This document shows positions 1,673-31,462 of a DNA stretch of 32,066 nt, piece by piece. Every line of letters begins with the position of its first letter. Within the stretch, counting starts at the first letter, position 1. Both the position numbers and the translations under genes were made by a program. Origin of the DNA: a virus. The notes below the pieces were generated by a model. That model searched no databases, was not told the DNA's origin, and saw nothing but the letters and a program-made list of their open reading frames with translations. Location of the stretch: the IMG/VR virus record IMGVR_UViG_3300033144_002153, positions 1-32,066 of that record. One strand, 5' to 3'.

Positions 1673-1700
1673 ATGACATGGCCTAACGCTCATGTAAACT
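1673..1700 (+). promoter_or_regulatory. predicted leaderless promoter for gene at 1707
   Basis: ATGACA (-35, 1673-1678), a 16-bp spacer, and TAAACT (-10, 1695-1700) lie six bases before the ATG at 1707. A transcript would begin at or next to the start codon. No Shine-Dalgarno sequence is present. Confidence 0.4.
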
Positions 1701-1706
1701 ATTAAT

Positions 1707-1910
1707 ATGGCCAGGAAGGACACTCTAGAGGGCATCTCTGATGAGATCCACGCGATAAGAACAAAAGACCTAGAAAAGATAAAAGATAAGCTACACACCA
1801 TAGATAAAAAAGTATCGTTAGCATCACTAAGAATCAATGGGGCATGGGGAGCTATAGTCTTATTAGGCGGCGGGTTGTGGTTTATCGTCCAAACCATGCT
1901 AAACCAATAA
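1707..1910 (+). CDS. small coiled-coil protein with C-terminal membrane helix
   Basis: A 67-residue protein. Residues 1-40 are charged and heptad-like (IHAIRTKDLEKIKDKLHTI). The last 20 residues form one hydrophobic helix (AWGAIVLLGGGLWFIVQTML), so it should be a tail-anchored membrane protein with its coiled coil in the cytoplasm. Such small proteins are common in phages, sometimes as holin-like or accessory membrane proteins, but nothing here fixes the role. It lies directly before the terminase gene. There is no Shine-Dalgarno; see the promoter at 1673. Confidence 0.7.
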   Translation: MARKDTLEGISDEIHAIRTKDLEKIKDKLHTIDKKVSLASLRINGAWGAIVLLGGGLWFIVQTMLNQ

Positions 1911-1911
1911 T

Positions 1912-3216
1912 ATGGAGATCGAGTTATTCCCAGAACAGGACGCGTTTGTATTCTCTAACGCTAGGATTACTGGAGCTTTCTCAGGCAAGCGTGGTGGCAA
2001 GACTGAGGGTGGCGCAGTCAAGATAAGAAGATTAATAGAAGAAAAGTACGGATGGGAAGACAACGGTCGTGATCCATACCTTGCTATAATAGCAGCCCCG
2101 AACTTCCCTATGCTTAAACGTCTATCGTGGAAGAAGTTCAAAGCCTTTGCTGACAGATCGCTATACACAGAGAACAAACAAGAGATGTTTATGGAATGGC
2201 ATAACGGTGCCGAGGTGTATGGCATTAGTGGTACTCGTCCCGAGAATATGGAGGGTATGAAAGCGAATTGTGTTTGGATTGACGAGGTATTTCAGTTCAG
2301 CGAGAATTTCTTCTTGGAGGCTATGGCGAGGGTAGCAGATCAGCAGGGGTTGATTATATGTACTGGCTCTCTTGGGCAGAATATCGTCAACCCCAAAAAT
2401 CATTGGGCTTACAAGTACTTCAAACAGAACCCAGCTACTGGCACGGTCACATTTGAATGGCCGACAGCAGCTAACCCACACTTTCCCAAAGACGAGCTTT
2501 CCCGCATGAAAGAGAACCTTGACCCAAGGACTTTCAGACAGATGTTTGAAATTGACTGGGATGTACCGCCAACCAACATGATCTATGACACATTCTGTGA
2601 GCACAACGTTATTAGTGCTGCTGACTTTGTTATGAAGGATCACTACGAGATATCAATCAGCGTTGACTGGGGTTGGACCAATCCTATGAGTGTCGGCTTC
2701 TACGCATACGATGAGATTACCAGAACCGTTTACCGCTTTGATGAGATCTATAAGAGCAAGCTTAAGCTGGATGTGATGTGGAAGATGGTGCTTGAGAAGC
2801 TTGAGAAGTGGGATGTGCATCAGCTAACAGGTAAGTACTGTGATATCGCTGGCCTTCAATCAAGGGAGATGGTCGGTAGTAGTAACGTGGCTATAATGCG
2901 GGAAGATCATGGGGTTGACTTTGACTACAAGGCATCTAAAATAAACAAAGGAATCTCACTGGTTAGGAAGTTTATAATGGATGGCAAGGGCCGTACTAGA
3001 TACAAGGTAGTAGAAGAGAACTGCCCAGATCACTTGGATGAGATGCGGGGATACTGTTATCATGAAGTTAATGGCGTACTGCAAGAAGTTCCTAAACCTG
3101 GAATAAATGATCACAGCCTGGATGAGATGAGATACTATTTTATTAATCGTCATGATGACATAGCTAATCAGCCGTCTATGACAGAGTTCAACCGATGGGG
3201 TAAGCAATGGCGCTAA
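1912..3216 (+). CDS. terL: terminase large subunit
   Basis: The motor that cuts and pumps phage DNA into the prohead. It has 434 residues, typical for the family. The N-terminal ATPase shows a terminase-style Walker A (SGKRGGKT, residues 24-31) and Walker B (CVWIDE, residues 120-125, with the catalytic Glu). The C-terminal nuclease domain begins with an RNase H-like strand carrying Asp (SVDWGW, around residue 252). The stop overlaps the portal start by 10 bases. No small terminase subunit is recognisable in the window. The ATG at 1912 has no Shine-Dalgarno, but TAAACC sits six bases upstream, resembling the leaderless pattern seen at 1707. Confidence 0.93.
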   Translation: MEIELFPEQDAFVFSNARITGAFSGKRGGKTEGGAVKIRRLIEEKYGWEDNGRDPYLAIIAAPNFPMLKRLSWKKFKAFADRSLYTENKQEMFMEWHNGAEVYGISGTRPENMEGMKANCVWIDEVFQFSENFFLEAMARVADQQGLIICTGSLGQNIVNPKNHWAYKYFKQNPATGTVTFEWPTAANPHFPKDELSRMKENLDPRTFRQMFEIDWDVPPTNMIYDTFCEHNVISAADFVMKDHYEISISVDWGWTNPMSVGFYAYDEITRTVYRFDEIYKSKLKLDVMWKMVLEKLEKWDVHQLTGKYCDIAGLQSREMVGSSNVAIMREDHGVDFDYKASKINKGISLVRKFIMDGKGRTRYKVVEENCPDHLDEMRGYCYHEVNGVLQEVPKPGINDHSLDEMRYYFINRHDDIANQPSMTEFNRWGKQWR

Positions 3217-4760
3217 GTAAAGATGAGATCATAAAGATTATCGAAGACATTTCAGGAACTGAAGAGACCCAGCGTAAAGAGCTTGCCGAGCGTAGGCAGA
3301 ACATCTACGACGATGGTGGTCAGGTGTATCTGATTGATAGCCTTGAGCAAGAGTTTGGTAAAGACGCCATTGCTGAAATGAGACTTGCGCCTGTCAATCC
3401 GTTTAAGAAAATCGTAAACACCATCAGCGCGGTATACGACTCTGAGCCAGTTCGCAGAACAGAGTTACCTAAAGATCAAGAGATCGTAGACGCTTATGTA
3501 AAAGAGCAGCAGCTTGATAGCGTTGTATTCCCCAAGCTAAATAAGTACTATAATGCTTTTGCTAACGCTCCTATCATGATCGCACCCAAGGATGAGCTGC
3601 CGATGCCGATGGTTCTACCAGGATGGAAGTACAGCGTTGTCACTGACCCAAAAGATCCTATGGCAGCGTCGACATACATCCTGTCAATCATTCCTAAGCG
3701 TGGCGATGTTAAAAAGAGCACACGACAGCTATCAGCTACTGGTCACAACTCAGTTAGCGTTAACAATGCTGATAAAGATGTAGACGAGTCTAAAGAGAAC
3801 GAGTTTCATATCTTCTGGACTGATGAAGAGCATTTCATGGTTAATGGTAACGCCGTCAAACAAGAAGATGACCCAGCTAATGAGAAAGAGGGTAATAACC
3901 CTATCGGCGTACTCCCATTCGTAAACATCACAAGAGAGCGTGAGTCTTTCTGGTCTACTCAGGGTGAGGACGCTATCCAGATTACTATGCTTATTCAAAA
4001 GGCGTGGACTGATGTGTTTACTGTTGTAAAAGAGCAGGGATATGGAAAGCTGATCATTACATCTGCTGTTAAGCCAGAAATGATGACCTTTGGAACGAAT
4101 AAAGCAGCATGGTTGCAGACGAAAGAGGGTCAGCCAACACCTACCGCTGAGTATCTTACAAGTGGTGCCCCCATTACTGAGACAAAAGAACTCATCTTAG
4201 ACCTACAAAAGCAGCTGCTGATCACATACGACATCAGCCCGGCCACTATGTCAGGCGATGCTATGATGGCTAGCTCAGGATTTCAGCAGTTGCTACTAAT
4301 GAGTGACACCCTAAAATCAGTTAAACGGCAACAGCCCACCTTCTCTAGTATGGAGCGACAGTATTGGAAGATTAAAGCACGTTGGCATAACTGGATGCTT
4401 GATAACAAGCTACTAAGGAAAGACTTTGCAGCAATGGGTAAGATGTCAGAAGACATTGAGGTGGGCCTTACATACAGAAACCCTATGGCTATCGAGAGCA
4501 CAACCGAGATTATCAACGAGATCAAAGAGCTATCAGATATCGGCATGATCACAGAGATCGAAAAGGTTAAGAAGCTACACCCATCAATGACTGATGAAGA
4601 AGCAGAGGCTCATCTGCTACTACTCAAAGAAGAGAAAGAGGCTCGAATGAAAGACATGCAGAAAGCAATGGGTGGCGCTACCCCGTTCGGTGAGAAGAAA
4701 GACGATGAAGAAGAAGACAAGGACGAAAAGAAAGAGAACCCATTTGACAAGGATGAGTGA
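3207..4760 (+). CDS. portal protein
   Basis: A 517-residue protein in the position directly after TerL, with portal-like size and character. It has a mixed alpha/beta N-terminal half, a region around residues 330-370 rich in Met/Ser with a hydrophobic helix (stem and tunnel-loop candidate), and a strongly acidic and lysine-rich C-terminal tail. The portal forms the dodecameric DNA gate at one capsid vertex, binding the terminase outside and the adaptor afterwards. The identification rests on gene order, length and overall composition more than on a single motif. The stop overlaps the next start (TGATG). Confidence 0.82.
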   Translation: MALSKDEIIKIIEDISGTEETQRKELAERRQNIYDDGGQVYLIDSLEQEFGKDAIAEMRLAPVNPFKKIVNTISAVYDSEPVRRTELPKDQEIVDAYVKEQQLDSVVFPKLNKYYNAFANAPIMIAPKDELPMPMVLPGWKYSVVTDPKDPMAASTYILSIIPKRGDVKKSTRQLSATGHNSVSVNNADKDVDESKENEFHIFWTDEEHFMVNGNAVKQEDDPANEKEGNNPIGVLPFVNITRERESFWSTQGEDAIQITMLIQKAWTDVFTVVKEQGYGKLIITSAVKPEMMTFGTNKAAWLQTKEGQPTPTAEYLTSGAPITETKELILDLQKQLLITYDISPATMSGDAMMASSGFQQLLLMSDTLKSVKRQQPTFSSMERQYWKIKARWHNWMLDNKLLRKDFAAMGKMSEDIEVGLTYRNPMAIESTTEIINEIKELSDIGMITEIEKVKKLHPSMTDEEAEAHLLLLKEEKEARMKDMQKAMGGATPFGEKKDDEEEDKDEKKENPFDKDE

Positions 4761-5645: not shown

Positions 5646-5689
5646 CGCATAAGACCTTGACCCTACGACATCGCACCATAGAATTGTTT

Positions 5690-5695
5690 TATAAT
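5690..5695 (+). promoter_or_regulatory. candidate -10 element before scaffold gene
   Basis: A perfect TATAAT lies in the 75-base gap before the scaffold gene. The best -35 is poor (ACGACA at 5665, spacer 19), so this is a weak candidate. An extra promoter here would suit the need for high scaffold and capsid expression. Confidence 0.3.
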
Positions 5696-5720
5696 GTTAA
5701 TCATAGGTTAAGGAGACAAT

Positions 5721-6338
5721 ATGTCAGACCAAAACGAAGCTCTAGAGAACTCTGAGCTAACCCCTGCGAATGCAGACAAAAAAGACGAGCTAGTACTAGA
5801 CGAATTGCCACAACTCACCGCAGCAGAATTGCAAGATGAGCTAGAAGCATTGAGAAAGACGAACAGTCGTTTACTTGATGAGTCAAAGGGCAACAAGACT
5901 AAATACCAGACTGGTCAAAAACAGTTGGAAGAGTTTGAAAAAGATAGGCTCAAAGAAAAGGAAGACTTCAAGTCTCTTAGCGAGAAATTGCAAGAGAAGC
6001 TTGATGCTCAGAATGTAAGAGTAGCTAAGGCTAGGATTAAGGAGGCAGTCGCAGCTCACGCTGATGGATGCTCTGATATCGAGGCGTTACTATTGCTGGG
6101 TAATCATAAGATGCTTTCTTACGATGAAGACGCCGAGTCAGTGGGTGGTGTAGAGGATTTTGTCAGGGCTGTAAAAGAGTCAAGACCATATCTATTCGCT
6201 GCTGTTGATAAGGAAGTCATTCATAATAGGCCCCCGACTGCTGGAAAGAAAATGGATAAAGGTGCTGCTTTGCGAGCGTGTACGACCCAAGCACAATTGG
6301 ATGCGTATCATGCTGGAGTTGAGGCAGCTAAACAATAA
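5721..6338 (+). CDS. capsid scaffolding protein
   Basis: A 205-residue, highly charged and helical protein placed directly before the major capsid gene, the usual spot for a scaffold. Residues about 30-115 are predicted coiled coil, dense in Glu, Lys and Leu (EELEALRK-like heptads, QKQLEEFEKDRLKEKEDF). The C-terminal part carries a short basic/proline segment (NRPPTAGKK) that could contact the coat. Scaffolds guide prohead shape and leave before packaging. TTAAGGAGACAAT gives a strong Shine-Dalgarno, identical in style to those before 31626 and 31835. Confidence 0.82.
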   Translation: MSDQNEALENSELTPANADKKDELVLDELPQLTAAELQDELEALRKTNSRLLDESKGNKTKYQTGQKQLEEFEKDRLKEKEDFKSLSEKLQEKLDAQNVRVAKARIKEAVAAHADGCSDIEALLLLGNHKMLSYDEDAESVGGVEDFVRAVKESRPYLFAAVDKEVIHNRPPTAGKKMDKGAALRACTTQAQLDAYHAGVEAAKQ

Positions 6339-6354: not shown

Positions 6355-7281
6355 ATGGCTTTTACACTAAATATGACTGCTGCGGTTGATGTCGATGATT
6401 CTCTGATTCTAGAGTTTGATCAACAATTTATCGTAGCTTCTGGACAAGAAAACGTACTGGATCAGTTCGCTACTAAAAGGATGAGTATCGGCGCTGTCTC
6501 AATTCAACTAGCTAAGTATCCGAGACTAGCTCTTAATACAGCCCCGCTAGCTGAGGCTGATGATGTCGATTCTGTTAAACTGTCTGACACTCAGATCAAG
6601 TTGACACCTGCTGAGCACGGTATGGTTGTTACTACTACTGCGCTTGCTAACTTACAATCAGGTGGAACTGCTGACCGTGCCGCCGCTCGTTTAGTTGGTA
6701 TTCATCTTAGTCAGTTAACAGACCGACTCGGTTGTGAAGCTCTTGACGCATCTGCAAACGTAAGTGGACCAGGTGGCGTTGCTGAGGCATCACTTGCTGC
6801 ATCAGACGTAGTAACTGCCTCTTACTTGAATGAGCTTTACAACAAGCTTGCTCGTAGAAGTGTTCAACCTAATGCAAACGGTTTGTATTCGTTCATTGCT
6901 CATGACGACGTTATTCATGATCTGCGTAACGATGCAGGTTCTAACTCTTGGACAGAGATATCTAAGCACCAAAAATCTGAGGACGTTCTTAAGAATGAAG
7001 TCGGACAATTGGCTGGTTTCTCTATTGTAAGAGACAACCTGTCTACCCTCACTGCTGATGGTGGTGCTGCTACTGTAGATAGTTACCGTTCTTATGCCAT
7101 GGGCTTCAACGCTCTTGGTAAGGCTGAGTCTCAACCATCACAAATGGTTATCTCTGGCCCATTCGATAAATTAGCACGTTTCGCTAATATCGGTTGGAAA
7201 GGAACGATGGCTTATAAGATCATTGACCAGGACGCTCTTGAGCTAGCTGTCAGTGCATCAAGCGTAGGCGCTAACGTATAA
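6355..7281 (+). CDS. major capsid protein, N4-gp56-like
   Basis: A 308-residue protein with an HK97-fold coat character close to the N4-gp56 family. The recognisable pieces are FIAHDDVIHDLRND around the middle, then KNEVGQLAGFSIVRDN, and near the end GPFDKLARFANIGWKGTMAY. These match the family's conserved loop, 'GE(I/V)G-x-LAG' strand and late 'GWKG-x-x-AY' segment. Upstream, TAAAGGAGGCC is a near-perfect Shine-Dalgarno, fitting the most abundant virion protein. A strong terminator follows at 7293. Confidence 0.85.
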   Translation: MAFTLNMTAAVDVDDSLILEFDQQFIVASGQENVLDQFATKRMSIGAVSIQLAKYPRLALNTAPLAEADDVDSVKLSDTQIKLTPAEHGMVVTTTALANLQSGGTADRAAARLVGIHLSQLTDRLGCEALDASANVSGPGGVAEASLAASDVVTASYLNELYNKLARRSVQPNANGLYSFIAHDDVIHDLRNDAGSNSWTEISKHQKSEDVLKNEVGQLAGFSIVRDNLSTLTADGGAATVDSYRSYAMGFNALGKAESQPSQMVISGPFDKLARFANIGWKGTMAYKIIDQDALELAVSASSVGANV

Positions 7282-7292
7282 TTAAGTGATTG

Positions 7293-7317
7293 CTGGGGGC
7301 TTCGGCCCCCGGCTTTC
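7293..7317 (+). terminator. intrinsic terminator after capsid gene
   Basis: CTGGGGGC, a UUCG tetraloop and GCCCCCGG form an 8-bp GC-rich stem (7293-7300 with 7305-7312, one G-U), followed by CTTTCCCTT. The extra-stable UUCG loop and its place 12 bases after the capsid stop support termination or mRNA 3'-end protection. The U-tract is interrupted, so read-through into the next genes is likely. Confidence 0.75.
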
Positions 7318-7320
7318 CCT

Positions 7321-7326
7321 TATCAT
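7321..7326 (+). promoter_or_regulatory. -10-like element, leaderless start at 7333
   Basis: TATCAT lies six bases before the ATG at 7333, just after the capsid terminator, and no Shine-Dalgarno is present. No convincing -35 is visible because the terminator stem occupies that space. Confidence 0.3.
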
Positions 7327-7332
7327 TAAGAT

Positions 7333-7542
7333 ATGGCTCAGAACGTCCACCGCGTGCTACTACACTTCATTGCATCCGATCCTCTGGACGTTACCAAGAA
7401 GTGTATGGCCATCAATCACGTAAACAGAAAAGAATACGAGTATATGCAACCGATAAAAGACGGTAGCTCATGGGTCGTTTTCTTCTACGCCGATGCAACC
7501 AATATAGAACTACCTCCAGTAACAGGAGGATCAGATGGCTAG
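7333..7542 (+). CDS. hypothetical protein, 69 aa
   Basis: The function is not recognised. It is a small soluble protein with alternating hydrophobic and charged residues (VHRVLLHFIA; SSWVVFFYAD), suggesting a compact beta fold. It is the first gene after the capsid terminator and overlaps the next gene by 8 bases, so it belongs to the block of small genes at 7333-10473. A minor virion or decoration component is possible from location alone. Confidence 0.6.
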   Translation: MAQNVHRVLLHFIASDPLDVTKKCMAINHVNRKEYEYMQPIKDGSSWVVFFYADATNIELPPVTGGSDG

Positions 7543-11755: not shown

Positions 11756-12931
11756 ATGGCTACAGGTGTAAATAAGTTAAATAGTGTTATTGGGTTAGCA
11801 GAAGAAGTCACTGAGGGCGTGTATGTTGCACCATCCGCTTATATGCAGCCGCTTGAAGGCTTTGGTGCAGAGACATCAAAAGAAGAGCTAGAAAGACAGA
11901 TCATTACAGCTAACATCGGTACTCCAGTTCCAAGAACGGGAATGAAGTCCGCTAGTGTTTCGATGCCTCTAGAGTGGAAGGCCAGCGGAACTGAGGGAGA
12001 TGCACCAGAGTCCGACCTACCATTAAAATCTATGCTGGGTGATAAGAGACAGGTTGTGTCACAATCTACCACTAAGGCTGGAAACAGCACAACGGTTCTA
12101 CAGATTGAAGATGCAGATATATCTAAGTACGCAAAGGGTGACTCTATGGTCATCCTAGAGGCTGGCGATCACTCAGCACACATCATCACCGCTGTCGACA
12201 CCACTGGTGGATCAGCTAACGTTACATATCTTCCATCAAGATCAGCAGCACCAGCTGACAATGTGGCTGTATCAAAATCAACTACTTACTTCCCGTCTAA
12301 CACAGGTCATCCGTCTATCTCAGCGTCTATCTATTGGGGTGATGAGATCCTAGAAAAGGTTACTGGCTGTAAGATCGGATCAATGAGCTTAGATAATTTC
12401 TCTGTAGGACAGATTCCTAGCTTGAACTTTGCGTTCCAAGGTATGGACTTTGACCGAGAAGATGGGTCAAGCGCTGGAGCGACATACAGCTCTGGGCTTC
12501 CTTTCATCGCGCTTAAGGCATGTGTATTTCAGAACGATGTATCGCTTGAGTTAGAAACATTCTCTTTGAGCGTCACGAACGAGATCGGACAGATCAAATC
12601 TACGTGTGCTGAATCAGGTATTACTGCGCAGCGACACACTAAGCGCAAGATTGAGTTTTCAATGAACCCATACATGGATGACACCACATTAACGCAGTTC
12701 GACAAGTTCAATGATCAGGAGCTTTACTCTATCATTATCACAGGAGCTAACCCTTCTAGTGTTGCTGGAGAGTTCGATCTTGGGTCTGTGTGTACCATCT
12801 ACCTTCCAAACTGTATGACTACCGGCGACCCTATTGGAGATGTTGATAACATCCTAGTGGATAGCATCAGCGGTAAGGCGACTGTCGGGGCATCTGGTGA
12901 CGAGACAGATATATTTATGGGTTTCGTATAG
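11756..12931 (+). CDS. major tail tube protein
   Basis: A 391-residue beta-rich protein between the tail terminator and the tail assembly chaperones, which is the major tail protein slot. It starts NKLNSVIGLAEEVTEGVY, like many phage tube proteins (a 'G-x-A-x-E-x-x-x-GVY' opening), and is long enough for the tube domain plus an added surface domain. TAAGGAGATAATAGA is a strong Shine-Dalgarno, fitting a highly produced subunit. It forms stacked hexameric rings of the tail tube. Confidence 0.78.
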   Translation: MATGVNKLNSVIGLAEEVTEGVYVAPSAYMQPLEGFGAETSKEELERQIITANIGTPVPRTGMKSASVSMPLEWKASGTEGDAPESDLPLKSMLGDKRQVVSQSTTKAGNSTTVLQIEDADISKYAKGDSMVILEAGDHSAHIITAVDTTGGSANVTYLPSRSAAPADNVAVSKSTTYFPSNTGHPSISASIYWGDEILEKVTGCKIGSMSLDNFSVGQIPSLNFAFQGMDFDREDGSSAGATYSSGLPFIALKACVFQNDVSLELETFSLSVTNEIGQIKSTCAESGITAQRHTKRKIEFSMNPYMDDTTLTQFDKFNDQELYSIIITGANPSSVAGEFDLGSVCTIYLPNCMTTGDPIGDVDNILVDSISGKATVGASGDETDIFMGFV

Positions 12932-12932: not shown

Positions 12933-12960
12933 TTGACATATATGCCCTATAGTTTATCGT
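12933..12960 (+). promoter_or_regulatory. predicted leaderless promoter for tail chaperone
   Basis: A perfect -35 TTGACA (12933-12938), a 16-bp spacer and TATCGT (12955-12960) lie six bases before the ATG at 12967. It begins two bases after the tail tube stop. TATAGT at 12948 is an alternative -10 but is too close to the -35. No Shine-Dalgarno precedes the gene. Confidence 0.5.
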
Positions 12961-12966
12961 TTCAAT

Positions 12967-13371
12967 ATGGCGATGATTATACGTGGTGGTAGTAAGCCGC
13001 AAGAACTAGTAATAGGTGATGTGACATTCACAATAAAGCCGCTTGAATGGCAAGAGCGGCTAGATCTGGGACAGTACATTAACCAGAAGCACGGAAAGAC
13101 CGTTGTCGATAAACACTCCTATACAAAAAAATTAATAAGTGTTTGCGTGAAAGACGTTAAAGGAATAACTGACCAGCACGGGGCTAAGTACACTTTGTCG
13201 CTAAATAGCTCAACGGGATACCTCACGGATGAGTGTGTCAGTGAGTTATGGCAGCTAAACTTCTTACCAGAGTTTCTTGAAAAGGCCATAGTTATAGCTA
13301 GAAGCCTAGTCCAAGACCCTAAATCAAAAGTCAAAGCGCTTAAGAAGCGGGCCTCTAAAAAAAAGAAGTAG
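12967..13371 (+). CDS. tail assembly chaperone, short form
   Basis: A 134-residue protein between tail tube and tape measure, the position of lambda gpG-type chaperones. It has a beta-hairpin start (QELVIGDVTFTIKPLEWQER) and a Lys-rich end. The last codons before the stop form the slippery heptamer A_AAA_AAG, so most ribosomes would make this short form and a fraction would shift -1 into the frame ending at 13853. Chaperones of this type bind the tape measure protein before the tube polymerises. Start chosen at ATG 12967 in line with the leaderless promoter. Confidence 0.72.
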   Translation: MAMIIRGGSKPQELVIGDVTFTIKPLEWQERLDLGQYINQKHGKTVVDKHSYTKKLISVCVKDVKGITDQHGAKYTLSLNSSTGYLTDECVSELWQLNFLPEFLEKAIVIARSLVQDPKSKVKALKKRASKKKK

Positions 13372-13382: not shown

Positions 13383-13853
13383 CCCCATGTTGACATAATA
13401 ACCGAGTTTGTTATGGATATGTCACAAATAAGCAACGACGAGTTCGCCACCATCATAGTTACCATGAGTACAATAGCCGACACTAAGGAGTTCTTTGTAT
13501 GCTCTAGGTGCCTGGTAACAGGGACAAGTGAAGAGATGATAGAAAAGAAGCGGGTGATTAGGTCTTGCCACGGCATGTCGGATGACCCCATAATGAAGTA
13601 CTCCTTAGATGAGATGGAAGTGTCTACCTTTACATGCCCCGGTAATATATTCAGCGCCGAGATCGCCAACATGGTTCCTGCGTTTAAGGCATTTAAACGA
13701 GGGGTTATGCCTTATGCGGGGCCGTACACCCAACAGCCGGCTAAGGTTATGGACGTTTTCGGCATCATGGAGCAATGGTATACTGATAGAGAAATGAAGA
13801 CAGCCAGAGATCAACAGGCTAAGCAGCGGGGAGCTAAAGGTTTTGGCAGATGA
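13365..13853 (+). CDS. tail assembly chaperone, frameshifted C-terminal extension
   Basis: After the slip, reading resumes at GAA 13365-13367 and adds 162 residues to the first 133, giving a fusion of about 295 residues. This matches the lambda G/GT arrangement. An ATG at 13413 lies in the same frame but has no Shine-Dalgarno, so independent initiation is less likely. The extension has several Cys (VCSRCLVTG, RSCHG, TFTCPG) that could bind a metal, and a C-terminal basic end. Its 3' end overlaps the tape measure start. Confidence 0.75.
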   Translation, partial: EVGSCPPHVDIITEFVMDMSQISNDEFATIIVTMSTIADTKEFFVCSRCLVTGTSEEMIEKKRVIRSCHGMSDDPIMKYSLDEMEVSTFTCPGNIFSAEIANMVPAFKAFKRGVMPYAGPYTQQPAKVMDVFGIMEQWYTDREMKTARDQQAKQRGAKGFGR

Positions 13854-21275: not shown

Positions 21276-21782
21276 ATGGCTTTCGATGCAATAACCACGG
21301 CTGAAACTCTACCGGGTCAGCCAACAAAGACAGAACTTTTTACTAAAACAAAAGATAATTTTGATGACCATGAGTCACGCCTAGCCATTTCAGAAGCATC
21401 TCTTGGTAGGTTTGCTCCTGCTGAGTTTGCTGTAGTGGGTCCAACACAGACAACGGACGCCGATTTAGTTAAGAATGAAGTGCTAACGTGGCGCGTGCCT
21501 TTCGATATCACTGTGCTGGGCACTAGGCTTTTGATCTTATCGTCTGGAGTGTCGGGTAGTACAGAGATAGACATAGAAGTTAAACAAGGCGTTTCGGCAT
21601 TCACAACAATACTTGCTTCCCCTGTTTCTGTTGCGTTCGGATCTGGTGACTACGCGATAGGATCGGCTTCACTGGGAGCGTTGACAGCCTTAGATGGTGG
21701 CGACATAGTAAGGCTAAATATAAACGCTGTTCAAGAGAATGGCGAGTCTTTCACAGTTTATATGGAGTATGAATCACGATGA
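21276..21782 (+). CDS. fibre-associated structural protein
   Basis: A 168-residue protein starting with ITTAETLPGQPTKTELFTKT and then KDNFDDHESRL, an attachment motif seen at the start of several phage collar, fibre and spike proteins. The rest is a beta-sandwich-like domain with strands such as FDITVLGTRLLILSSG and EIDIEVKQGV. It is likely a small appendage bound to the hub by its N-terminus. Its stop overlaps the start of the glycine-rich gene (ATGA). Confidence 0.6.
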   Translation: MAFDAITTAETLPGQPTKTELFTKTKDNFDDHESRLAISEASLGRFAPAEFAVVGPTQTTDADLVKNEVLTWRVPFDITVLGTRLLILSSGVSGSTEIDIEVKQGVSAFTTILASPVSVAFGSGDYAIGSASLGALTALDGGDIVRLNINAVQENGESFTVYMEYESR

Positions 21783-22423
21783 GTTCGCATAACACCTACC
21801 GAGAAAATCTGGTGATGGATGAGTTTCTAGTTAACGGTAACTGGACTTGTCCTGCTCATGTTACGACTGTTCAGCTAATCGGTGCTGGCGGTGGCGGCGG
21901 TGGCGGTGGCGGTCAGGGTGGCAGTGACTCGGCTGGTGGCGGTGGCGGCGGTGGCGAGCACTCAGAGTTTTTATCTGTAACGCCCGGAACGTCTTACACA
22001 ATAACTGTAGGCGCTGGCGGTGGCGGTGGCGGTCCTGGTGGCGGCGGCGGTGCTGGTGGTACAACCTCCTTCGATGGTGCTGTGGACTTTTCTGGGGGCG
22101 GTGGTGCTGGTAACGGTAGGGCTGGCTTCGGTGGTGTTGGTGGATCGGGTGGTGGTTCCGGTGGTAATGGTGCAACGGCTGGCGGTCTAACACAAGTAAA
22201 TGGTGCTGGATCAGGTGCAGGTGGCGGCGCAGCAGGTGCGCTGGGTTCTGTTACTGGATCAGGAGCAGGTGGCGGCGGTGTCGGTGATGGTGGTAATGGC
22301 TCAACAGGTAATGGCAGCGCTGGTGGTCTTGCGGCTGGTGGTTCGGGTGGTGCTACAGGCGCTCATTCTGGTGGTGCTGGTGGCAGCGGTAGATTAAGAA
22401 TAGTTTACAGCGCGAGGGTGTAA
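21779..22423 (+). CDS. glycine-rich fibre tip / adhesin
   Basis: A 214-residue protein. The first 45 residues read FLVNGNWTCPAHVTTVQLIG, the standard lead-in of glycine-rich phage and bacterial tip proteins. About 150 residues then follow in which most are Gly (runs of up to nine), interrupted by short Ser/Ala/Asn turns. Such sequences can pack as polyglycine-II helices and vary at the turns to change receptor specificity, as in T-even gp38-type adhesins. The DNA is dominated by GGN triplets and prone to slippage. A second in-frame ATG at residue 13 is possible. Confidence 0.75.
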   Translation: MSSHNTYRENLVMDEFLVNGNWTCPAHVTTVQLIGAGGGGGGGGGQGGSDSAGGGGGGGEHSEFLSVTPGTSYTITVGAGGGGGGPGGGGGAGGTTSFDGAVDFSGGGGAGNGRAGFGGVGGSGGGSGGNGATAGGLTQVNGAGSGAGGGAAGALGSVTGSGAGGGGVGDGGNGSTGNGSAGGLAAGGSGGATGAHSGGAGGSGRLRIVYSARV

Positions 22424-22707
22424 TGGCTAAGAAAGTATCGAAGAAAGTAAAAAAGAAACCCAATAGAACAAAGAGCGCTCCTTCTGTTATCTCAGACAAG
22501 AGGTTATCGGGCAGCGTGGACATCCCTTGTTTGTCTTGTTCCGTGACATCCCCTGCTAAAGACTGGATGGACGTAGACTACGACTGCTCACACTGTTCTG
22601 AGCAGTTCGATTCAGGAAAACACATGGCTATCGAGTGCCCCTTATGTGGTGCTGAGTCGCGATGGAGTTATCAATGCGAGAAAGAGTTTCCCTTTGAACC
22701 CGTTTGA
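22423..22707 (+). CDS. zinc-ribbon protein with basic N-terminus
   Basis: A 94-residue protein. The first 20 residues are strongly basic (AKKVSKKVKKKPNR), and the rest has CLSC, CSHC and CPLC motifs plus a late Cys, enough for one or two zinc sites. This may bind nucleic acid. It lies between tail-tip and lysis genes with its start overlapping the previous stop (taATGG), and it overlaps the transglycosylase gene. The function is otherwise unknown. Confidence 0.6.
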   Translation: MAKKVSKKVKKKPNRTKSAPSVISDKRLSGSVDIPCLSCSVTSPAKDWMDVDYDCSHCSEQFDSGKHMAIECPLCGAESRWSYQCEKEFPFEPV

Positions 22708-23206
22708 CGATGTAGACATAGAAATACTAGAGGCCATCGAAGACATCTCGGCGCAGTCTGGAGTCAACGAGTTATTAATGAAATGCCTTATTATGAATGA
22801 GTCTGCGTTTGAGCCGCTAGCAATGCGTTATGAGGTGAATTATCGCTGGGTGCAAAGTGACGCAAAGGTAAGACGACACGCTAAACGGTGCAACATTTCT
22901 CAAGATACAGAAGATCAATGCCAACGGTTCTCTTATGGCCTTTGCCAGATAATGGGAGCCACCCTGAGAGATATGGGGTTCAAGGATCCCCTGGTGTACG
23001 CCTTCGATATAGAAACTAATATTGAATGGGGTTGCAAAATGATCGGCAACGCCATGCGTAGATATGACAACGACATTGATCATGTGCTCGCATCATACAA
23101 CGGTGGACATGGCGCGGTGATCCATAAAAAAAGACATGGAATATACTCTGAGGATGTGCGAGATTATATAAGTGATGTGAAAAGTCACATGAAACATCTA
23201 ACTTAG
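22694..23206 (+). CDS. SLT-type murein transglycosylase (endolysin or tail lysozyme)
   Basis: The core follows the soluble lytic transglycosylase plan: LIMNESAFEPLAMRYE with the catalytic Glu at residue 36, SYGLCQIMGATLRDMGF (the G-L-x-Q-I-M motif), a helix NIEWGCKMIG, and ASYNGG near the C-terminus. It cleaves the glycan backbone of peptidoglycan to release progeny or to help DNA entry. There is no signal peptide. The start is uncertain: TTG 22694 is preferred (GAGAAAGAG upstream, short overlap with the previous gene), but GTG 22646 is also open. Confidence 0.8.
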   Translation: MNPFDDVDIEILEAIEDISAQSGVNELLMKCLIMNESAFEPLAMRYEVNYRWVQSDAKVRRHAKRCNISQDTEDQCQRFSYGLCQIMGATLRDMGFKDPLVYAFDIETNIEWGCKMIGNAMRRYDNDIDHVLASYNGGHGAVIHKKRHGIYSEDVRDYISDVKSHMKHLT

Positions 23207-26105: not shown

Positions 26106-26438
26106 CTAAAAAGGTATATCGTCTTCTGTAAACTCCGGCTTTGGAACAGCGCCTTTAACTTCAAGCGGCGGCTGGTTGGCTGGGGCTTGATAATTAGCCT
26201 GGTTGTTTGGCTGCATCTCTTTAACCTCATTGTATATGCCCACATGTGTATGTTTGCCCTTACCTTTGTCATCATCCCTTTTTGTGAAGATAGATGTCTC
26301 AAGCTCAAATTTATGCTCGCATTGCGGGCATTTTATAAACCGAATAAACAGCTTAATAAACCGCGCTCCTGTTGTCTTGACTGTATAGGCGTAACCCCTC
26401 ACTAATGGGCCGTCTTTAAATTGTTCGTTGTCGCTCAT
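26106..26438 (-). CDS. SSB-like protein with acidic C-terminal tip
   Basis: A 110-residue protein ending FTEDDIPF, almost identical to the conserved tip of bacterial single-stranded DNA binding proteins (DDxPF) that recruits repair and replication partners. It is preceded by a flexible Pro/Asn/Gln-rich linker, also as in SSB. The N-terminal 65 residues are beta-rich (GYAYTVKTTGARFIKLFIRF) with a CPQC pair and a Lys-rich loop, which is short for a standard OB fold. Its start overlaps the Rad52-like stop (ATGA). ssDNA binding is inferred, not shown. Confidence 0.6.
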   Translation of the reverse strand: MSDNEQFKDGPLVRGYAYTVKTTGARFIKLFIRFIKCPQCEHKFELETSIFTKRDDDKGKGKHTHVGIYNEVKEMQPNNQANYQAPANQPPLEVKGAVPKPEFTEDDIPF

Positions 26439-26941
26439 AACCATTCGTCTCCATCTTGTTGTGCTTTAGGCTGTGCATTGTTTTGATTAGCCGGGTGCTG
26501 TTGTTTCTGTGTTTGTTTCTTAGGCGGTGTCACGTTACCTTTATAGACCTCATTACCGATACCAAACCAAGACGCACACTTTGACAAGCAATCGGTCTTA
26601 GCTGACTTGTATGAGTCGCCCTCGTTAGCCTTGAATACGGCGTACCCGATACCAGAATGGGATGCGTTCCAGCTTTTACCCTCAGTAGAACAGTTGATAA
26701 GTCCCACTCTTAGTTCCCCGAAGTAAAGTATGCCGTTCTGACCCTGGTCAAACTTGCCTACTTGCTCCCATCCATCGTAACCGAATACCTGATTAAGTCG
26801 TTCAACAACACATTGAGCCTTAACCGATGTCAGCGGGAAACCTCTAGAGTTATCCAAGGTCATCGCATCATCGGGAAAGTCTTTAATCAGTCGCATGTAT
26901 GTTGTGTCTGGTTCTTTTTTTATTACTTTTGTATCTTCCAT
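26435..26941 (-). CDS. Rad52-like single-strand annealing protein
   Basis: A 168-residue protein with the compact Rad52-type annealing core: FPLTSVKAQCVVERLNQVFG near residues 35-55 (the VxxRLNxVFGxDGW motif), strands around YFGELRVGLI, and SYKSAKTDCLSKCASWFGIG followed by NEVYKG. The last 35 residues are a Gln/Asn/Pro-rich tail. It would anneal complementary ssDNA in phage recombination, together with the SSB-like protein next to it. Start ATG 26941 fits the motif spacing and the leaderless promoter; the frame is open further upstream. Confidence 0.8.
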   Translation of the reverse strand: MEDTKVIKKEPDTTYMRLIKDFPDDAMTLDNSRGFPLTSVKAQCVVERLNQVFGYDGWEQVGKFDQGQNGILYFGELRVGLINCSTEGKSWNASHSGIGYAVFKANEGDSYKSAKTDCLSKCASWFGIGNEVYKGNVTPPKKQTQKQQHPANQNNAQPKAQQDGDEWL

Positions 26942-26947
26942 GAGCAC

Positions 26948-26976
26948 TAGATACAACGACCCGTAAACGAGATCAA
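26948..26976 (-). promoter_or_regulatory. predicted leaderless promoter for Rad52-like operon
   Basis: Read on the minus strand: TTGATC (-35, 26976-26971), a 17-bp spacer, and TATCTA (-10, 26953-26948) lie six bases before the ATG at 26941. No Shine-Dalgarno precedes the gene. Confidence 0.4.
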
Positions 26977-26988
26977 CAAGAAAATGTA

Positions 26989-27017
26989 GTGACACTAAAA
27001 TAATAATAGTGTACTGT
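26989..27017 (+). promoter_or_regulatory. predicted leaderless promoter for gene at 27024
   Basis: GTGACA (-35, 26989-26994), a 17-bp spacer and TACTGT (-10, 27012-27017) lie six bases before the ATG at 27024. It diverges from the Rad52-like promoter; the two -35 elements are 12 bases apart. Confidence 0.4.
26992..27012. promoter_or_regulatory. operator-like inverted repeat between divergent promoters
   Basis: ACACTA (26992-26997) and TAGTGT (27007-27012) form a perfect 6-bp inverted repeat around an AT-only 9-bp spacer. It overlaps the plus-strand -35 and touches its -10, so a bound dimer would block that promoter and could affect the divergent one. Confidence 0.4.
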
Positions 27018-27023
27018 AGTGGT

Positions 27024-27395
27024 ATGGAAGCTACCGAATGCCCAACATGTCAGTATGTGTCATCTAACGACACATGCCCATACTGCCTGTATACCCGGAT
27101 ACAAGACAGCGGCGCTAAGGGGCTAAACACCGCAAAGAGGCGCAAGGATAGGGCAGTGGGCATAAGGGCCGCTATAGGGGCCATCAAGGGCTTGGGGGCT
27201 ATGCTGCTGCTCACATCACTAGGCTGTGGCGTGGTTAAAACGAATGATTCGATATCGGACGACTACGCAACCGAAATAGTTTACCAATACGAGCTTAATC
27301 ATGTATTGACATATAGTGATAGAGTTGCTCTAAGAGACATAGCAAAAAGACAGATACTCACAGCAATAGAGGAGCGAGAAAGTAATGGATTATAA
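27024..27395 (+). CDS. zinc-ribbon protein with internal membrane/lipobox segment
   Basis: A 123-residue protein. CPTC (residues 6-9) and CPYC (18-21) make an N-terminal zinc ribbon. A basic stretch follows (TAKRRKDR), then a hydrophobic helix GLGAMLLLTSLGC (about 56-68) resembling a lipoprotein signal with Cys68, and a polar helical C-terminal domain of about 55 residues. The full-length form would be a membrane protein with cytoplasmic zinc ribbon. Alternatively an internal GTG at 27156, with a signal-like start, could make a small lipoprotein. No family is recognised. Confidence 0.55.
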   Translation: MEATECPTCQYVSSNDTCPYCLYTRIQDSGAKGLNTAKRRKDRAVGIRAAIGAIKGLGAMLLLTSLGCGVVKTNDSISDDYATEIVYQYELNHVLTYSDRVALRDIAKRQILTAIEERESNGL

Positions 27396-27413
27396 AGGGA
27401 ATGGAACTAGTAC

Positions 27414-27823: not shown

Positions 27824-27947
27824 GTTTCTTCTTAAAGAGATACTTGTAGCACGCTGCACAGACGAACAGCTCCATACTCACGTTGATAGCGATGAATAGC
27901 GCCTGGATGAATAACATAATATAACTAGGCTGATAAACGAGATCCAT
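27801..27947 (-). CDS. small minus-strand membrane protein, 48 aa
   Basis: On the minus strand an open frame of 48 residues contains one long hydrophobic helix (YIMLFIQALFIAINVSMELF, residues 9-28), a CAAC pair and a basic C-terminus (YLFKKKPKKSR), obeying the positive-inside rule. It has no Shine-Dalgarno, but a perfect TATAAT lies exactly six bases before its ATG, as in other genes of this phage. It is convergent to, and overlaps by 23 bases, the gene ending at 27823. Confidence 0.45.
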   Translation of the reverse strand: MDLVYQPSYIMLFIQALFIAINVSMELFVCAACYKYLFKKKPKKSRLI

Positions 27948-27953
27948 CTATTA

Positions 27954-27959
27954 ATTATA
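27954..27959 (-). promoter_or_regulatory. -10 element, leaderless start of 48-aa gene
   Basis: TATAAT read on the minus strand lies six bases before the ATG at 27947. No clear -35 is visible 16-18 bp further upstream. Confidence 0.35.
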
Positions 27960-28042
27960 ACATGGGTAGGCAAGACCACCCCCGGCTTTTCTTATTGATA
28001 AAGACTCCGTAGGGTGGTATCTATTAACTTAGTGAAAGTAAA

Positions 28043-28078: not shown

Positions 28079-28106
28079 AAGATAAAAAGCAGACACTCAC
28101 AGGATT

Positions 28107-28130: not shown

Positions 28131-28228
28131 GTTCGATCGTAGCCTTAGAGAAATCTAGCGGTCAGGTTAATTTTATCAACATGCGAAGGTAGCTCAGTAG
28201 TAGTACTGGGCGAGTGGGATAGATTGAA

Positions 28229-28531: not shown

Positions 28532-28807
28532 CGGCTCAAGAGTTTGTCGGCTGGTATAACGACCACCGATTTAATACAGTAGGTTCTACTGAGGTAAGAA
28601 TTTAGGTCTGGTGTCTCAGGAACACTGGTTAAAACCCACCTTATGAAAAGGGTGCCTTACTTCTTTTCTGAGTAGAACTCCTGTAGCGGCTTAGTATTGG
28701 GATACTCGTTGAGAGTTACAAGTCTAAATCCTATAATGCGTAAGCACAGTAGGGTAGGGGAATAACGTTAGTTCGCCCCAAGGTAGAACCTGACAAAAGA
28801 GGACAGA
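28532..28807. other. non-coding stretch before HNH gene
   Basis: No supported gene is present. It holds hairpins, for example CTGGTGT with ACACTGG (two G-U pairs) near 28610, and AGTAT (28693-28697) with ATACT (28702-28706), and it ends in a strong promoter (28709-28737) and a leader of about 65 bases to the HNH gene. I looked for group I intron core elements and could not find them. Confidence 0.5.
28709..28737 (+). promoter_or_regulatory. strong sigma70-type promoter for HNH gene
   Basis: TTGAGA (28709-28714), a 17-bp spacer and a perfect TATAAT (28732-28737) match the consensus in 11 of 12 positions. Transcription would start near 28744, giving a leader of about 64 bases with AGAGGACAGA as ribosome site, unlike the leaderless starts elsewhere. 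Confidence 0.7.
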
Positions 28808-29128
28808 ATGAAAAGAATCTCTATAAAAAAAAGACTGCAAGAAAAGATAGAAGTCCACATGTGCAACGAGGAGTGGTTCGATGGTTGCTGGGAATGGAAG
28901 GGGTGCAGGAATGAACTCGGGTACGGAACTCTTTGGGATGACGGGAGGATGAAGAAGGCCCACCGGGTTAGCTACGAGGTGTACGTTGGTGCGATCCCAG
29001 ACGGTAAGAAGGTCCTGCATAGCTGCCACAACAGGTGGTGTGTAAACCCAGGCCACCTACGGACAGGAACACAGAAGGAGAACGTGAGGGACATGATAGA
29101 AGCGGGAAGGGCTAAGTTCCAGAAATGA
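28808..29128 (+). CDS. HNH endonuclease, HNH_3 type
   Basis: A 106-residue protein with the full HNH_3 plan: CWEWKG (27-32), GYGT, AHRVSYE (51-57), G-x-IP-x-G, then VLHSCHNRWCVNPGHL (69-84) holding the metal- and DNA-cutting His/Asn residues, and the C-terminal GTQKENVRDMIEAGR helix. Such genes are usually free-standing homing endonucleases that spread among phages. It has its own promoter at 28709 and its stop overlaps the next start, which argues against location in an intron. Confidence 0.88.
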   Translation: MKRISIKKRLQEKIEVHMCNEEWFDGCWEWKGCRNELGYGTLWDDGRMKKAHRVSYEVYVGAIPDGKKVLHSCHNRWCVNPGHLRTGTQKENVRDMIEAGRAKFQK

Positions 29129-29415
29129 AAACATTCAATGAATACTACAAAGAAGGCGACAAGATGAAACCGCAAGAAGAACTAGGCAGCTATGCAAAGC
29201 CACAAGATAAGATCAATCTGAATGGCACAACGTGGGATGATGCCGTTGCTCTTAGAGCTAAGGTGCATGACATACATAGTCGTTGGAAGACATCAGCAAC
29301 ACTAGAAGAAAAGGGCTTTCTTAATACTATGAAGAACCTGATGGGTGAAAGCTATATGAAGAAACTTCTAGAAGCTCATAAGAAAACTATTGCAAAGGGT
29401 TGTATTGACGAGTAA
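29125..29415 (+). CDS. hypothetical helical protein, 96 aa
   Basis: The function is not recognised. ATG 29125 overlaps the HNH stop, but ATG 29164 (residue 14) has a better ribosome site (AAGAAGGCGACAAG) and may be the true start, giving 83 residues. The body is charged and helical (DDAVALRAKVHDIHSRWKT; EEKGFLNTMKNLMGESYMKK), suggesting a small soluble helical bundle. It is in an operon with the HNH gene. Confidence 0.6.
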   Translation: MKTFNEYYKEGDKMKPQEELGSYAKPQDKINLNGTTWDDAVALRAKVHDIHSRWKTSATLEEKGFLNTMKNLMGESYMKKLLEAHKKTIAKGCIDE

Positions 29416-29425
29416 CGTCCTGATC

Positions 29426-29725
29426 ATGGACAGACTACTTAATTTAATTGCAGCCGCAGCTATCATCATCACAACTTACATGTTGATCAATGAGGCTAGT
29501 GCTTATGACTCAACACCAGACCAGGTTGTGACAATGCCTGTTGTGGAGAACCCGTCTGTTTACACAGAATGCAATCGTAGGTTTATCAATATAGACCGCG
29601 TATCATTTGTAGATGTCTGCAGGTTTACTCCCGACGGGGACTGGTATTTGATCTCATCGCGTGGCGGTGTGGAAAGGTTAGGCAGACTCGTTGTTACAAT
29701 GGAAGACGCGGTCAATCAGCTATAG
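29426..29725 (+). CDS. exported or membrane-anchored protein, 99 aa
   Basis: The N-terminus LLNLIAAAAIIITTYMLINEASA is a good signal peptide with a possible cleavage after Ala-Ser-Ala, leaving a periplasmic domain of about 73 residues with two Cys (YTECNRR, FVDVCRF) that could form a disulfide. No family is recognised. The ATG at 29426 lacks a ribosome site; a TTG at 29405, five bases after AAAGG, would extend the n-region by seven residues. Confidence 0.55.
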   Translation: MDRLLNLIAAAAIIITTYMLINEASAYDSTPDQVVTMPVVENPSVYTECNRRFINIDRVSFVDVCRFTPDGDWYLISSRGGVERLGRLVVTMEDAVNQL

Positions 29726-29792
29726 GCTGGAGATCAGGGAACTAAACTTAAGAAACAACGCCCTGGTAGGTAGATCTCTGACATGGAGCACG

Positions 29793-29903
29793 ATGTACTG
29801 GGATCGGGTAAGGCTTGCGCCATATCACTGGACCCACGGGTTCTTTTGCGGCTTCATCGTAACGCTCATTGTCTTAACCCTCGGCGGCGTGATTAGGTTA
29901 TAA
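29793..29903 (+). CDS. tiny single-helix membrane protein, 36 aa
   Basis: ATG 29793 follows GGAGCACG and gives 36 residues: a short basic/aromatic head (YWDRVRLAPYHW) and one hydrophobic helix to the end (FFCGFIVTLIVLTLGGVI). The frame is open upstream to about 29691, so a longer product is possible. It resembles small phage membrane proteins of unknown use. Confidence 0.4.
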   Translation: MYWDRVRLAPYHWTHGFFCGFIVTLIVLTLGGVIRL

Positions 29904-29915
29904 ACATTAGTTGTG

Positions 29916-29921
29916 TATAAT
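29916..29921 (+). promoter_or_regulatory. -10 element, leaderless start at 29929
   Basis: A perfect TATAAT lies seven bases before the ATG of the phosphoesterase gene, which has no Shine-Dalgarno. The best -35, TTAGGT at 29893 (spacer 17), is weak. Confidence 0.4.
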
Positions 29922-29928
29922 CTAGTTA

Positions 29929-30645
29929 ATGAGCTTTTTTCATGGTGATTCAAAACGCTGGCTGGCTATATCTGATCTACAGATTCCCTTCCAGCACCCG
30001 CAAGCATTAAGGTTCTGCAAAGATCTTATGAGAGAGTTCCGCATCAGTCCCCAGAACGTATTGAACTGCGGAGACGAAACAGACCAGTATTGGGGCAGCC
30101 TATATGATCATGATCCAAATGCTAACCTATCAGCAGTAGAAGAGATCAAACAATCCAAAGAGATCCTAAAAGAGTGGTACTCAGAGTTCCCTTATATGAA
30201 GCTATGCACATCTAATCATGGTGACAGATGGAAGCGTAAGGCGTTTGCAGGTGGCATACCTCAAGAGCTAATGCGTAACTATGAAGATGTGATGGAGTCC
30301 CCTGATACCTGGATATGGAAGAAAGCATGGCACATTGACGCAAAGTTTCCTTTTATGATAGAGCACGGTGACGACTGGGGGGGCCAGTACCCGCATCAGG
30401 TTGCTGCCATCCACAACGGAAAATCTACCATCATGGGGCATCATCATTCAAAAGCTATCGTTACTCACATCCAAAGGAAGGGGGGGCTTGATCCTATCTG
30501 GGGTGCAGTTAGCGGCGCGTTAATTGATTTCGAGAGCTACGCCTTTCACTATGCGAGAAAAGCTAAGTACCACCCCGTTATGGGAGCCACAGTGGTCATT
30601 GATGATGGCCGCACACCTCTCTTTATTCCAATGGGTGATAATTAA
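29929..30645 (+). CDS. calcineurin-like metallophosphoesterase
   Basis: A 238-residue protein with the family's metal-binding motifs in order: SDLQ (residues 15-18, variant of D-x-H), NCGDETDQ (46-53, GD-x-x-D), SNHGDR (variant of GNH-(D/E)), MIEHGDDWG (GD with a preceding His) and GHHH (about 169-172). It would hydrolyse a phosphodiester or phosphomonoester with two metals; phage members have been linked to nucleotide or DNA processing, but the substrate cannot be read here. A Gln replaces the usual His of the first motif, as in some phage homologues. Confidence 0.8.
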   Translation: MSFFHGDSKRWLAISDLQIPFQHPQALRFCKDLMREFRISPQNVLNCGDETDQYWGSLYDHDPNANLSAVEEIKQSKEILKEWYSEFPYMKLCTSNHGDRWKRKAFAGGIPQELMRNYEDVMESPDTWIWKKAWHIDAKFPFMIEHGDDWGGQYPHQVAAIHNGKSTIMGHHHSKAIVTHIQRKGGLDPIWGAVSGALIDFESYAFHYARKAKYHPVMGATVVIDDGRTPLFIPMGDN

Positions 30646-30653
30646 TTATTGTA

Positions 30654-30682
30654 TTGACGTTTGAACTGTATAAATATATATA
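30654..30682 (+). promoter_or_regulatory. sigma70-type promoter after phosphoesterase
   Basis: TTGACG (30654-30659), an exact 17-bp spacer and TATATA (30677-30682). Its RNA would start near 30689 and run into the hairpins at 30693 and 30720 before the next gene. Confidence 0.55.
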
Positions 30683-30692
30683 ACTGTCACTC

Positions 30693-30706
30693 CACCTATC
30701 AAGGTG
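30693..30706. other. small hairpin CACCT / AGGTG
   Basis: CACCT (30693-30697) and AGGTG (30702-30706) pair around ATCA. It would be close to the 5' end of RNA from the promoter at 30654. Confidence 0.45.
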
Positions 30707-30719
30707 ATGTGTGTCTACA

Positions 30720-30761
30720 GGGTAGCCGCATAGGTTGATCGCTTGACCTATGTGGTTACTT
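30720..30761. other. long 19-bp hairpin in leader
   Basis: Bases 30720-30738 can pair with 30743-30761 without a gap: 13 Watson-Crick and 6 G-U pairs, closed by a TCGC loop. All six wobble pairs are of the kind that favours an RNA-level structure on the plus strand. No U-run follows at once, so simple termination is not indicated. The 3' arm contains the TTGACC used as -35 by the next promoter. Confidence 0.7.
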
Positions 30762-30770
30762 AGTTATCCT
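30743..30770 (+). promoter_or_regulatory. predicted leaderless promoter for gene at 30777
   Basis: TTGACC (30743-30748), a 16-bp spacer and TATCCT (30765-30770) lie six bases before the ATG at 30777, the same geometry as at 12933. The -35 is buried in the 3' arm of the long hairpin sequence. Confidence 0.45.
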
Positions 30771-30776
30771 TGTACT

Positions 30777-30971
30777 ATGGCAAAGGATGACTACCCAGAT
30801 GATGATGATACTGAGCTAGGACCGCGCAACACCCTTTTCTATGAACGCTACAAAACCAAGTATGAGCGCAAATGTATGGGTCCAGATGATTGCAAGCGTG
30901 AGTTCACCACATTCAATCAACACAGACGCCTTTGTAATAAGTGCCGGAAGCATCCTGTATACGATCTATGA
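30777..30971 (+). CDS. small acidic zinc-finger-like protein, 64 aa
   Basis: The N-terminus is acidic (DDYPDDDDTEL), followed by an aromatic/basic helix and two Cys pairs, CMGPDDC (C-x5-C) and CNKC, which could bind one zinc. ATG 30777 is chosen over an upstream in-frame ATG at 30750 because the latter lies in the hairpin and would add a non-conserved-looking leader. No Shine-Dalgarno. Function unknown. Confidence 0.6.
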   Translation: MAKDDYPDDDDTELGPRNTLFYERYKTKYERKCMGPDDCKREFTTFNQHRRLCNKCRKHPVYDL

Positions 30972-30973
30972 TC

Positions 30974-30979
30974 TATAAT
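30974..30979 (+). promoter_or_regulatory. -10 element, leaderless start at 30986
   Basis: A perfect TATAAT lies six bases before the ATG at 30986, three bases after the preceding stop. No -35 match is visible, and there is no Shine-Dalgarno. Confidence 0.35.
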
Positions 30980-30985
30980 TGATCT

Positions 30986-31192
30986 ATGGATGATGAGACT
31001 TTTGAGATCGAAGAGCTTGATGAGAACGCATGGCACGAGATTAGAAGCTACGCGTTAGTCTACTATAAGAATGGTGATTTCCAGGGTAATCAAATGAAAT
31101 CAAGCATTAAGGCCTTTATCACATACTTGAGTAAGACAGAGAAACAGATCATTATCGACCACGATGACTATATAGATGGTGTTTTCCATTAA
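30986..31192 (+). CDS. small acidic protein, 68 aa
   Basis: An acidic helical protein (DDETFEIEELDENAW; AFITYLSKTEKQIIIDHDDY) without recognisable domain. It is one of three consecutive short genes (30777, 30986, 31202) that each follow a -10-like hexamer. The negative charge would fit a protein-binding inhibitor or DNA mimic, but this is speculation. Confidence 0.55.
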   Translation: MDDETFEIEELDENAWHEIRSYALVYYKNGDFQGNQMKSSIKAFITYLSKTEKQIIIDHDDYIDGVFH

Positions 31193-31201
31193 ACTATATC
31201 T

Positions 31202-31462
31202 ATGCCAGATATCGAACTCCCCACGCCTGACCACGATTTAGATGTAGACCACCTAGAAGATGATGAAGACGAGGAGTCTTATTATATAGGAGAGTCGCGT
31301 ATCTTTGCCTTTGGTGAGCACGAGATAACAGGCTTAGTAGAAGAGACATTCACAGAGCTAGGACATCCTACATATCGTATTAGAGATCAAAGATCGGGGA
31401 AGCTGTATGACATTAAGGCTGTTGATATCTTGTGGTCAAGCCCAGTAGAAGAGAAAGATTAA
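31202..31462 (+). CDS. small acidic protein with SH3-like end, 86 aa
   Basis: The first 30 residues are extremely acidic (DHDLDVDHLEDDEDEESYY). The rest forms strands (HEITGLVEETFTELGHPTYRI, then SGKLYDIKAVDILWS) like a small SH3/KOW-type barrel. TAAACT lies six bases before the ATG, as at 1707, and no Shine-Dalgarno is present. The role is unknown; the acidic tail plus barrel suggests a protein-binding regulator. Confidence 0.55.
   Translation: MPDIELPTPDHDLDVDHLEDDEDEESYYIGESRIFAFGEHEITGLVEETFTELGHPTYRIRDQRSGKLYDIKAVDILWSSPVEEKD

Follow-up and report, generated by a model that had tools for sequence, protein, structure and literature searches.

Does a phage begin several of its transcripts at the start codon itself, and are these starts more than a scatter of chance hexamers? 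The question is raised by IMGVR_UViG_3300033144_002153, an uncultured IMG/VR virus contig of 32,066 bases and 46% GC, analysed here over its whole length (the window), whose gene content suggests a siphophage (Table 1). The original prediction held that ten of its genes without a Shine-Dalgarno sequence (SD), on both strands, carry a -10-like hexamer just before the ATG and are transcribed from the A of that ATG. All ten hexamers are present in the sequence as described, six bases from the ATG in nine cases and seven bases at 29929 (genes are named here by the position of their start codon). As a list of leaderless starts it is three or four sites too long: six of the ten are good (1707, 12967, 27024, 29929, 30777, and 30986), whereas 27947 on the minus strand, 7333, 26941 on the minus strand, and 31202 are doubtful. 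The six genes, or about that number, are mostly heads of transcription units, and they are probably served by host sigma70-type promoters from which leaderless mRNAs are predicted.

Table 1. Promoter-like elements and annotated genes of the contig, in order of position. Spacings are in bases; percentages give the rank of the -35 element among random sites.
Feature	Positions	Strand	Remark
Promoter ATGACA(1673)-16-TAAACT(1695-1700)-6-ATG(1707)	1673..1709	+	predicted leaderless; -35 top 2.9%
Terminase large subunit (TerL)	1912-3216		
Leadered promoter TTGACC-16-TAGAAT before SD-led 5721	5657..5723	+	contrast
Major head protein	6355-7281		
Hairpin 7292-7313, then TATCAT(7321-7326)-6-ATG(7333)	7292..7335	+	doubtful: terminator-like hairpin
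Minor tail protein	11756-12931		
Promoter TTGACA(12933)-16-TATCGT(12955-12960)-6-ATG(12967)	12933..12969	+	-35 top 0.1%
Tape measure protein	13843-16017		
Tail-fibre and lytic tail proteins	21779-23206		
Rad52-like annealing protein	26435-26941	-	
TTGATC-17-TATCTA-6-ATG(26941), Rad52-like gene	26939..26976	-	doubtful: conserved final T of -10 missing
Promoter GTGACA(26989)-17-TACTGT(27012-27017)-6-ATG(27024)	26989..27026	+	-35 top 2.3%
Extended -10 TGT-TATAAT(27959-27954)-6-ATG(27947)	27945..27962	-	motif present
Leadered promoter TTGAGA-17-TATAAT before SD-led 28808 (HNH endonuclease)	28709..28810	+	contrast
HNH endonuclease	28808-29128		
TATAAT(29916-29921)-7-ATG(29929), metallophosphoesterase gene	29916..29931	+	-35 absent
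Metallophosphoesterase	29929-30645		
Promoter TTGACC(30743)-16-TATCCT(30765-30770)-6-ATG(30777)	30743..30779	+	-35 top 0.8%
TATAAT(30974-30979)-6-ATG(30986)	30974..30988	+	-35 absent
TAAACT before ATG(31202)	31190..31204	+	doubtful: TAA is the stop codon of the 30986 gene (31190-31192)
Leadered promoter TTGACT-17-TACTAT before SD-led 31626	31560..31628	+	contrast

In a list of 53 genes checked by hand, TANNNT lies 12 or 13 bases 5' of 11 gene starts, and at the same distance from 47 of the 1154 ATGs that are not gene starts (p = 8e-6). The predicted enrichment over shuffled sequence was also found: among the 22 SD-less genes that begin with ATG, 11 carry the hexamer against 1.5 ± 1.2 expected from dinucleotide shuffles of the 40 upstream bases, a count that none of 3000 shuffles reached. 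When 7333, 29125, 29426, and 31202 are left out as doubtful or coincidental matches with another explanation at hand, 7 remain against 1.3 expected, a number reached by one shuffle in 3000. The hexamer had further been expected to distinguish SD-less from SD-bearing starts, and the two classes do differ (11 of 25 versus 0 of 28, p = 6e-5), but part of this contrast is to be expected, as an SD would fill the same bases. At the predicted leaderless genes the start codon is always ATG and an SD is absent. With operon heads defined by a gap of more than 20 nt to the previous gene or by a divergent neighbour, the 17 such genes have TANNNT six times at distance 12, and between 8 and 59 no second distance has it more than three times. 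The proposal that the pattern marks operon starts has exceptions in 30986 and 31202, which begin just 14 and 9 nt behind the preceding gene. Of 36 genes inside operons, 24 agree with the accompanying statement that such genes carry normal ribosome sites, and four operon heads (5721, 10506, 28808, and 31626) are themselves SD-led.

A blind procedure that makes no use of the original list gives a similar picture. It calls genes, takes all SD-less candidate ATGs, and compares the count of TANNNT at 12/13 with the mean count at 16-45, and it was applied alike to the window, to known phages, and to relatives of the contig. In the window it returned nine matches against 1.5 expected (P = 2e-5), of which we leave two or three (8925, 9470, and 29125) unclaimed, as alternative starts that are internal or coupled. 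The first 50 kb of Thermus phage phiYS40 gave 10 against 1.2 (P = 6e-7), Thermus phage P23-45 gave 3 (P = 0.07), Pelagibacter phage HTVC111P gave 4 (P = 0.1), and Streptomyces phage Kumquat gave 1. The single match in lambda was cI, a known leaderless gene transcribed from PRM, which has TAGATT-6-ATG without an SD; the layout is the same as here, with one such gene in lambda and several in the contig phage. The test thus tells known positives from negatives and, since the controls behave as expected, finds what it should; the window resembles phiYS40 in having many genes with a -10 adjoining the ATG.

The -35 region separates the sites further. Scores were ranked against 1109 random TANNNT sites, and four of the ten sites (1707, 12967, 27024, and 30777) fall in the top 3% (binomial p ~1.5e-4), with the -35 at 16-17 bp in places where the -10 is weak. 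A -35 had been claimed for a fifth site as well, 26941 on the minus strand, where it is marginal (5.7%). The remaining five lack one, among them all three perfect TATAAT boxes (29929, 30986, and 27947), and a rank test that takes in all ten sites does not reach significance (p = 0.19). The strongest case among the predicted leaderless starts is 12967. The gene at 1707 encodes 67 amino acids and has a positive coding score; the promoter of 27024 is divergent to 26941; and the -35 of 30777 falls within a hairpin of 19 pairs (-26 kcal/mol), the gene itself having only a weak family match.

The doubtful sites are weak for different reasons. The open reading frame at 27947 is probably not a gene: it has 48 codons for amino acids, a coding score of -19, and zero family matches. 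At 7333, no -35 is present because the terminator-like hairpin fills the region; a similar arrangement occurs at 33442 on the minus strand of P23-45, where a hairpin runs into the -10 and ATG. Both 7333 and 31202 have neither a -35 nor a TATAAT or extended -10. The start of TerL at 1912, which had been said to show TAAACC at the same distance, was dropped as a leaderless candidate: this hexamer lacks the final T and belongs to the end of the 1707 coding sequence, the stop codon of which leaves a gap of 1 nt to TerL, and coupling explains the start better. An archaeal TATA-box reading of the pattern was rejected because the signal lies at -12, whereas such a box would be looked for around -26 to -30.

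On the reading we favour, the RNA polymerase of the host, carrying its main sigma factor, would bind at a -10 located -12 to -7 from the ATG (once -13 to -8), and the discriminator of 6-7 bases would set the start at the A of ATG or within 1-2 bases of it. The mRNA, having no leader, would be bound at its 5' AUG by 70S ribosomes, a mode of initiation known for other leaderless mRNAs (PMC9031893). Downstream genes of each unit would be translated via their own SD or by coupling, and the 5721, 28808, and 31626 units would use ordinary promoters and SD-bearing leaders beside the leaderless ones. The leaderless habit of the phage probably matches its host, and would follow from a host rich in leaderless genes.

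Other accounts of the hexamers can be weighed against these data. SD-less starts are frequently A+T rich, and the hexamers could be a by-product of A+T-rich, unstructured initiation regions, with transcription beginning upstream and the mRNA leadered or made by read-through. Three or four of the ten sites are indeed otherwise explained by a hairpin, a stop codon, or coupling, and relatives of the 7333 gene start just after a hairpin with neither SD nor -10. However, the excess is restricted to distance 12, with a small share at 13, it persists against shuffles that keep composition, and four sites have a -35 at the proper spacing, so we consider this account unlikely. That the whole pattern is chance, TANNNT being short and the cases having been picked by a reader, seems highly improbable. 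Sigma70-like sites over the whole window are not above shuffles (24 versus 26.6 and 20 versus 25.9), and three or four of the chosen cases are weak, but the blind procedure reached its result without the reader's list, and the excess survives removal of the weak cases.

The promoters could also be real while transcription starts 2-6 bases 5' of the ATG, or initiation occurs at a later in-frame codon, giving very short leaders. Bacterial start sites vary by 1-2 bases, and homology does not settle where small genes begin: 29929 and 30777 align with their relatives only from residue 10 on. In the related contig L045, the gene at the place of 12967 lacks a proper SD and has TTGATT-15-TATACT-9-ATG, a spacing that would suit such a leader. 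Against this, with the spacing of 6-7 in the contig the usual +1 falls on the A of ATG, and A is among the favoured initiating bases; we regard very short leaders as very unlikely.

If the starts are leaderless, as we favour, the contig phage has company. In phiYS40 most middle and late mRNAs are leaderless (PMC3594737), and their preferential translation has been proposed to go with more IF2 and less IF3; in Cluster O mycobacteriophages (Corndog and others), transcription from a divergent promoter pair is predicted to begin, on either side, with the first base of the flanking gene (PMC4351075). Among bacteria, TANNNT about 12 bp 5' of the start is a published mark of leaderless genes, whose mean share in the genomes that have them is 39% in Deinococcus-Thermus, 26% in Aquificae, 19% in Actinobacteria, 16% in deltaproteobacteria, and 13% of genes in Acidobacteria (PMC3160421), and mutation in Deinococcus showed that TANNNT acts as a -10 element (PMC12340547). 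These precedents contradict the view that it is unusual for a phage to have a class of leaderless mRNAs, and the contig phage is a further, statistically supported candidate of a known strategy. The parallels are nevertheless incomplete. P23-45 likewise has at least 3 starts where exactly 6 nt separate TANNNT from the ATG, one of them directly after a hairpin, but phiYS40 and P23-45 infect thermophiles, have different genomes, and show leaderless genes as entire temporal classes, whereas the contig phage has single operon heads. The Cluster O phages have high GC and three such promoters, which are predictions there too. The bacterial leaderless genes of Deinococcota, Actinobacteria, deltaproteobacteria, Acidobacteria, and Aquificae share the hexamer, the distance, and the mixture with SD-led genes, and they belong to cellular genomes, unlike this phage contig. 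By analogy with phiYS40, leaderless mRNAs might instead be a separate regulatory class in a mostly SD-led host, favoured when infection alters the initiation machinery, which we think quite unlikely. Phages for which several leaderless genes are predicted are few, and the contig adds to them a siphophage of 46% GC. Gene callers that rely on the SD may misplace such starts, and applying the TANNNT-at-12 test to phage collections could hint at host lineage.

The relatives of the contig are other metagenomic contigs, with head proteins at 33-59% identity and, in the closer matches, terminases at 42-46%; searches for closer relatives via the Rad52-like protein and an 861-aa tail protein found none. 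The seven full or near-full relatives have 8 matches against 8.1 expected, and 52 further contigs of the head-protein family, most of which span the structural region only, have 10 against 21; neither shows an excess. Terminase relatives have no convincing excess, the best of them, L127, giving 4 against 1.2 (P = 0.03, uncorrected for ~20 tests). Altogether, the capsid and terminase relatives number more than 60 contigs and have no excess. The property is therefore peculiar to the contig phage and not to its family, conservation cannot support most sites, and the habit, not being common to capsid and terminase relatives, may come or go with the host. A host search with the capsid protein over genome contigs matched only a Leptothrix contig (47% identity), at whose locus the TANNNT-before-ATG signal is absent, and a Hyphomicrobiaceae fragment; tRNA, Rfam, and plasmid searches of the contig gave zero matches. 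Relatives of the 12967 gene in G015 and G008 follow a terminator-like hairpin and have a good SD. Conservation of the layout is clear only for the metallophosphoesterase gene: it is absent in L024 and possible in L023 (TATAAT-8-ATG or TAATTT-6-ATG), and in G015 the orthologue has TTGCAA-17-TACAAT-6-ATG without an SD, the layout of 29929.

Between the metallophosphoesterase gene and the gene starting at 30777, the RNA can fold into a hairpin of 19 pairs (-26 kcal/mol). A T-rich stretch comes right after it, and transcription of the metallophosphoesterase unit probably terminates here. Because the -35 of the predicted leaderless promoter of 30777 lies within the 3' part of this hairpin, terminator and promoter overlap. 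The small gene following the major head protein gene starts without a Shine-Dalgarno (SD), immediately after a terminator-like hairpin, and the same arrangement, again without an SD, occurs at this place in three related metagenomic contigs (G001, G005, and L003). In the divergent 26941(-)/27024(+) region, the -35 of 27024 is overlapped by the dyad TAGTG-A-CACTA, a candidate operator and the only such dyad in the window.

Features of the window and their positions
Feature	Position	Remarks
68-aa protein gene	1448-1654	SD-led, TTG start
67-aa product gene	1707-1910	directly before TerL
Hairpin and small-gene start	7292-7335
Dyad	26987-26997
Hairpin	30720-30761

Upstream of the terminase large subunit gene (TerL), the 68-aa product, with the N-terminus PTYEYACETC and a CPNC pair, appears to resemble FmdB-type zinc ribbons. 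The 67-aa product, which has a charged N-terminal part and a single hydrophobic segment on its C-terminal side, had no match in Pfam or PHROG. A strong ribosome site, AAGGAGACAA(T/G)ATG, is near-identical at the three starts 5721, 31626, and 31835.
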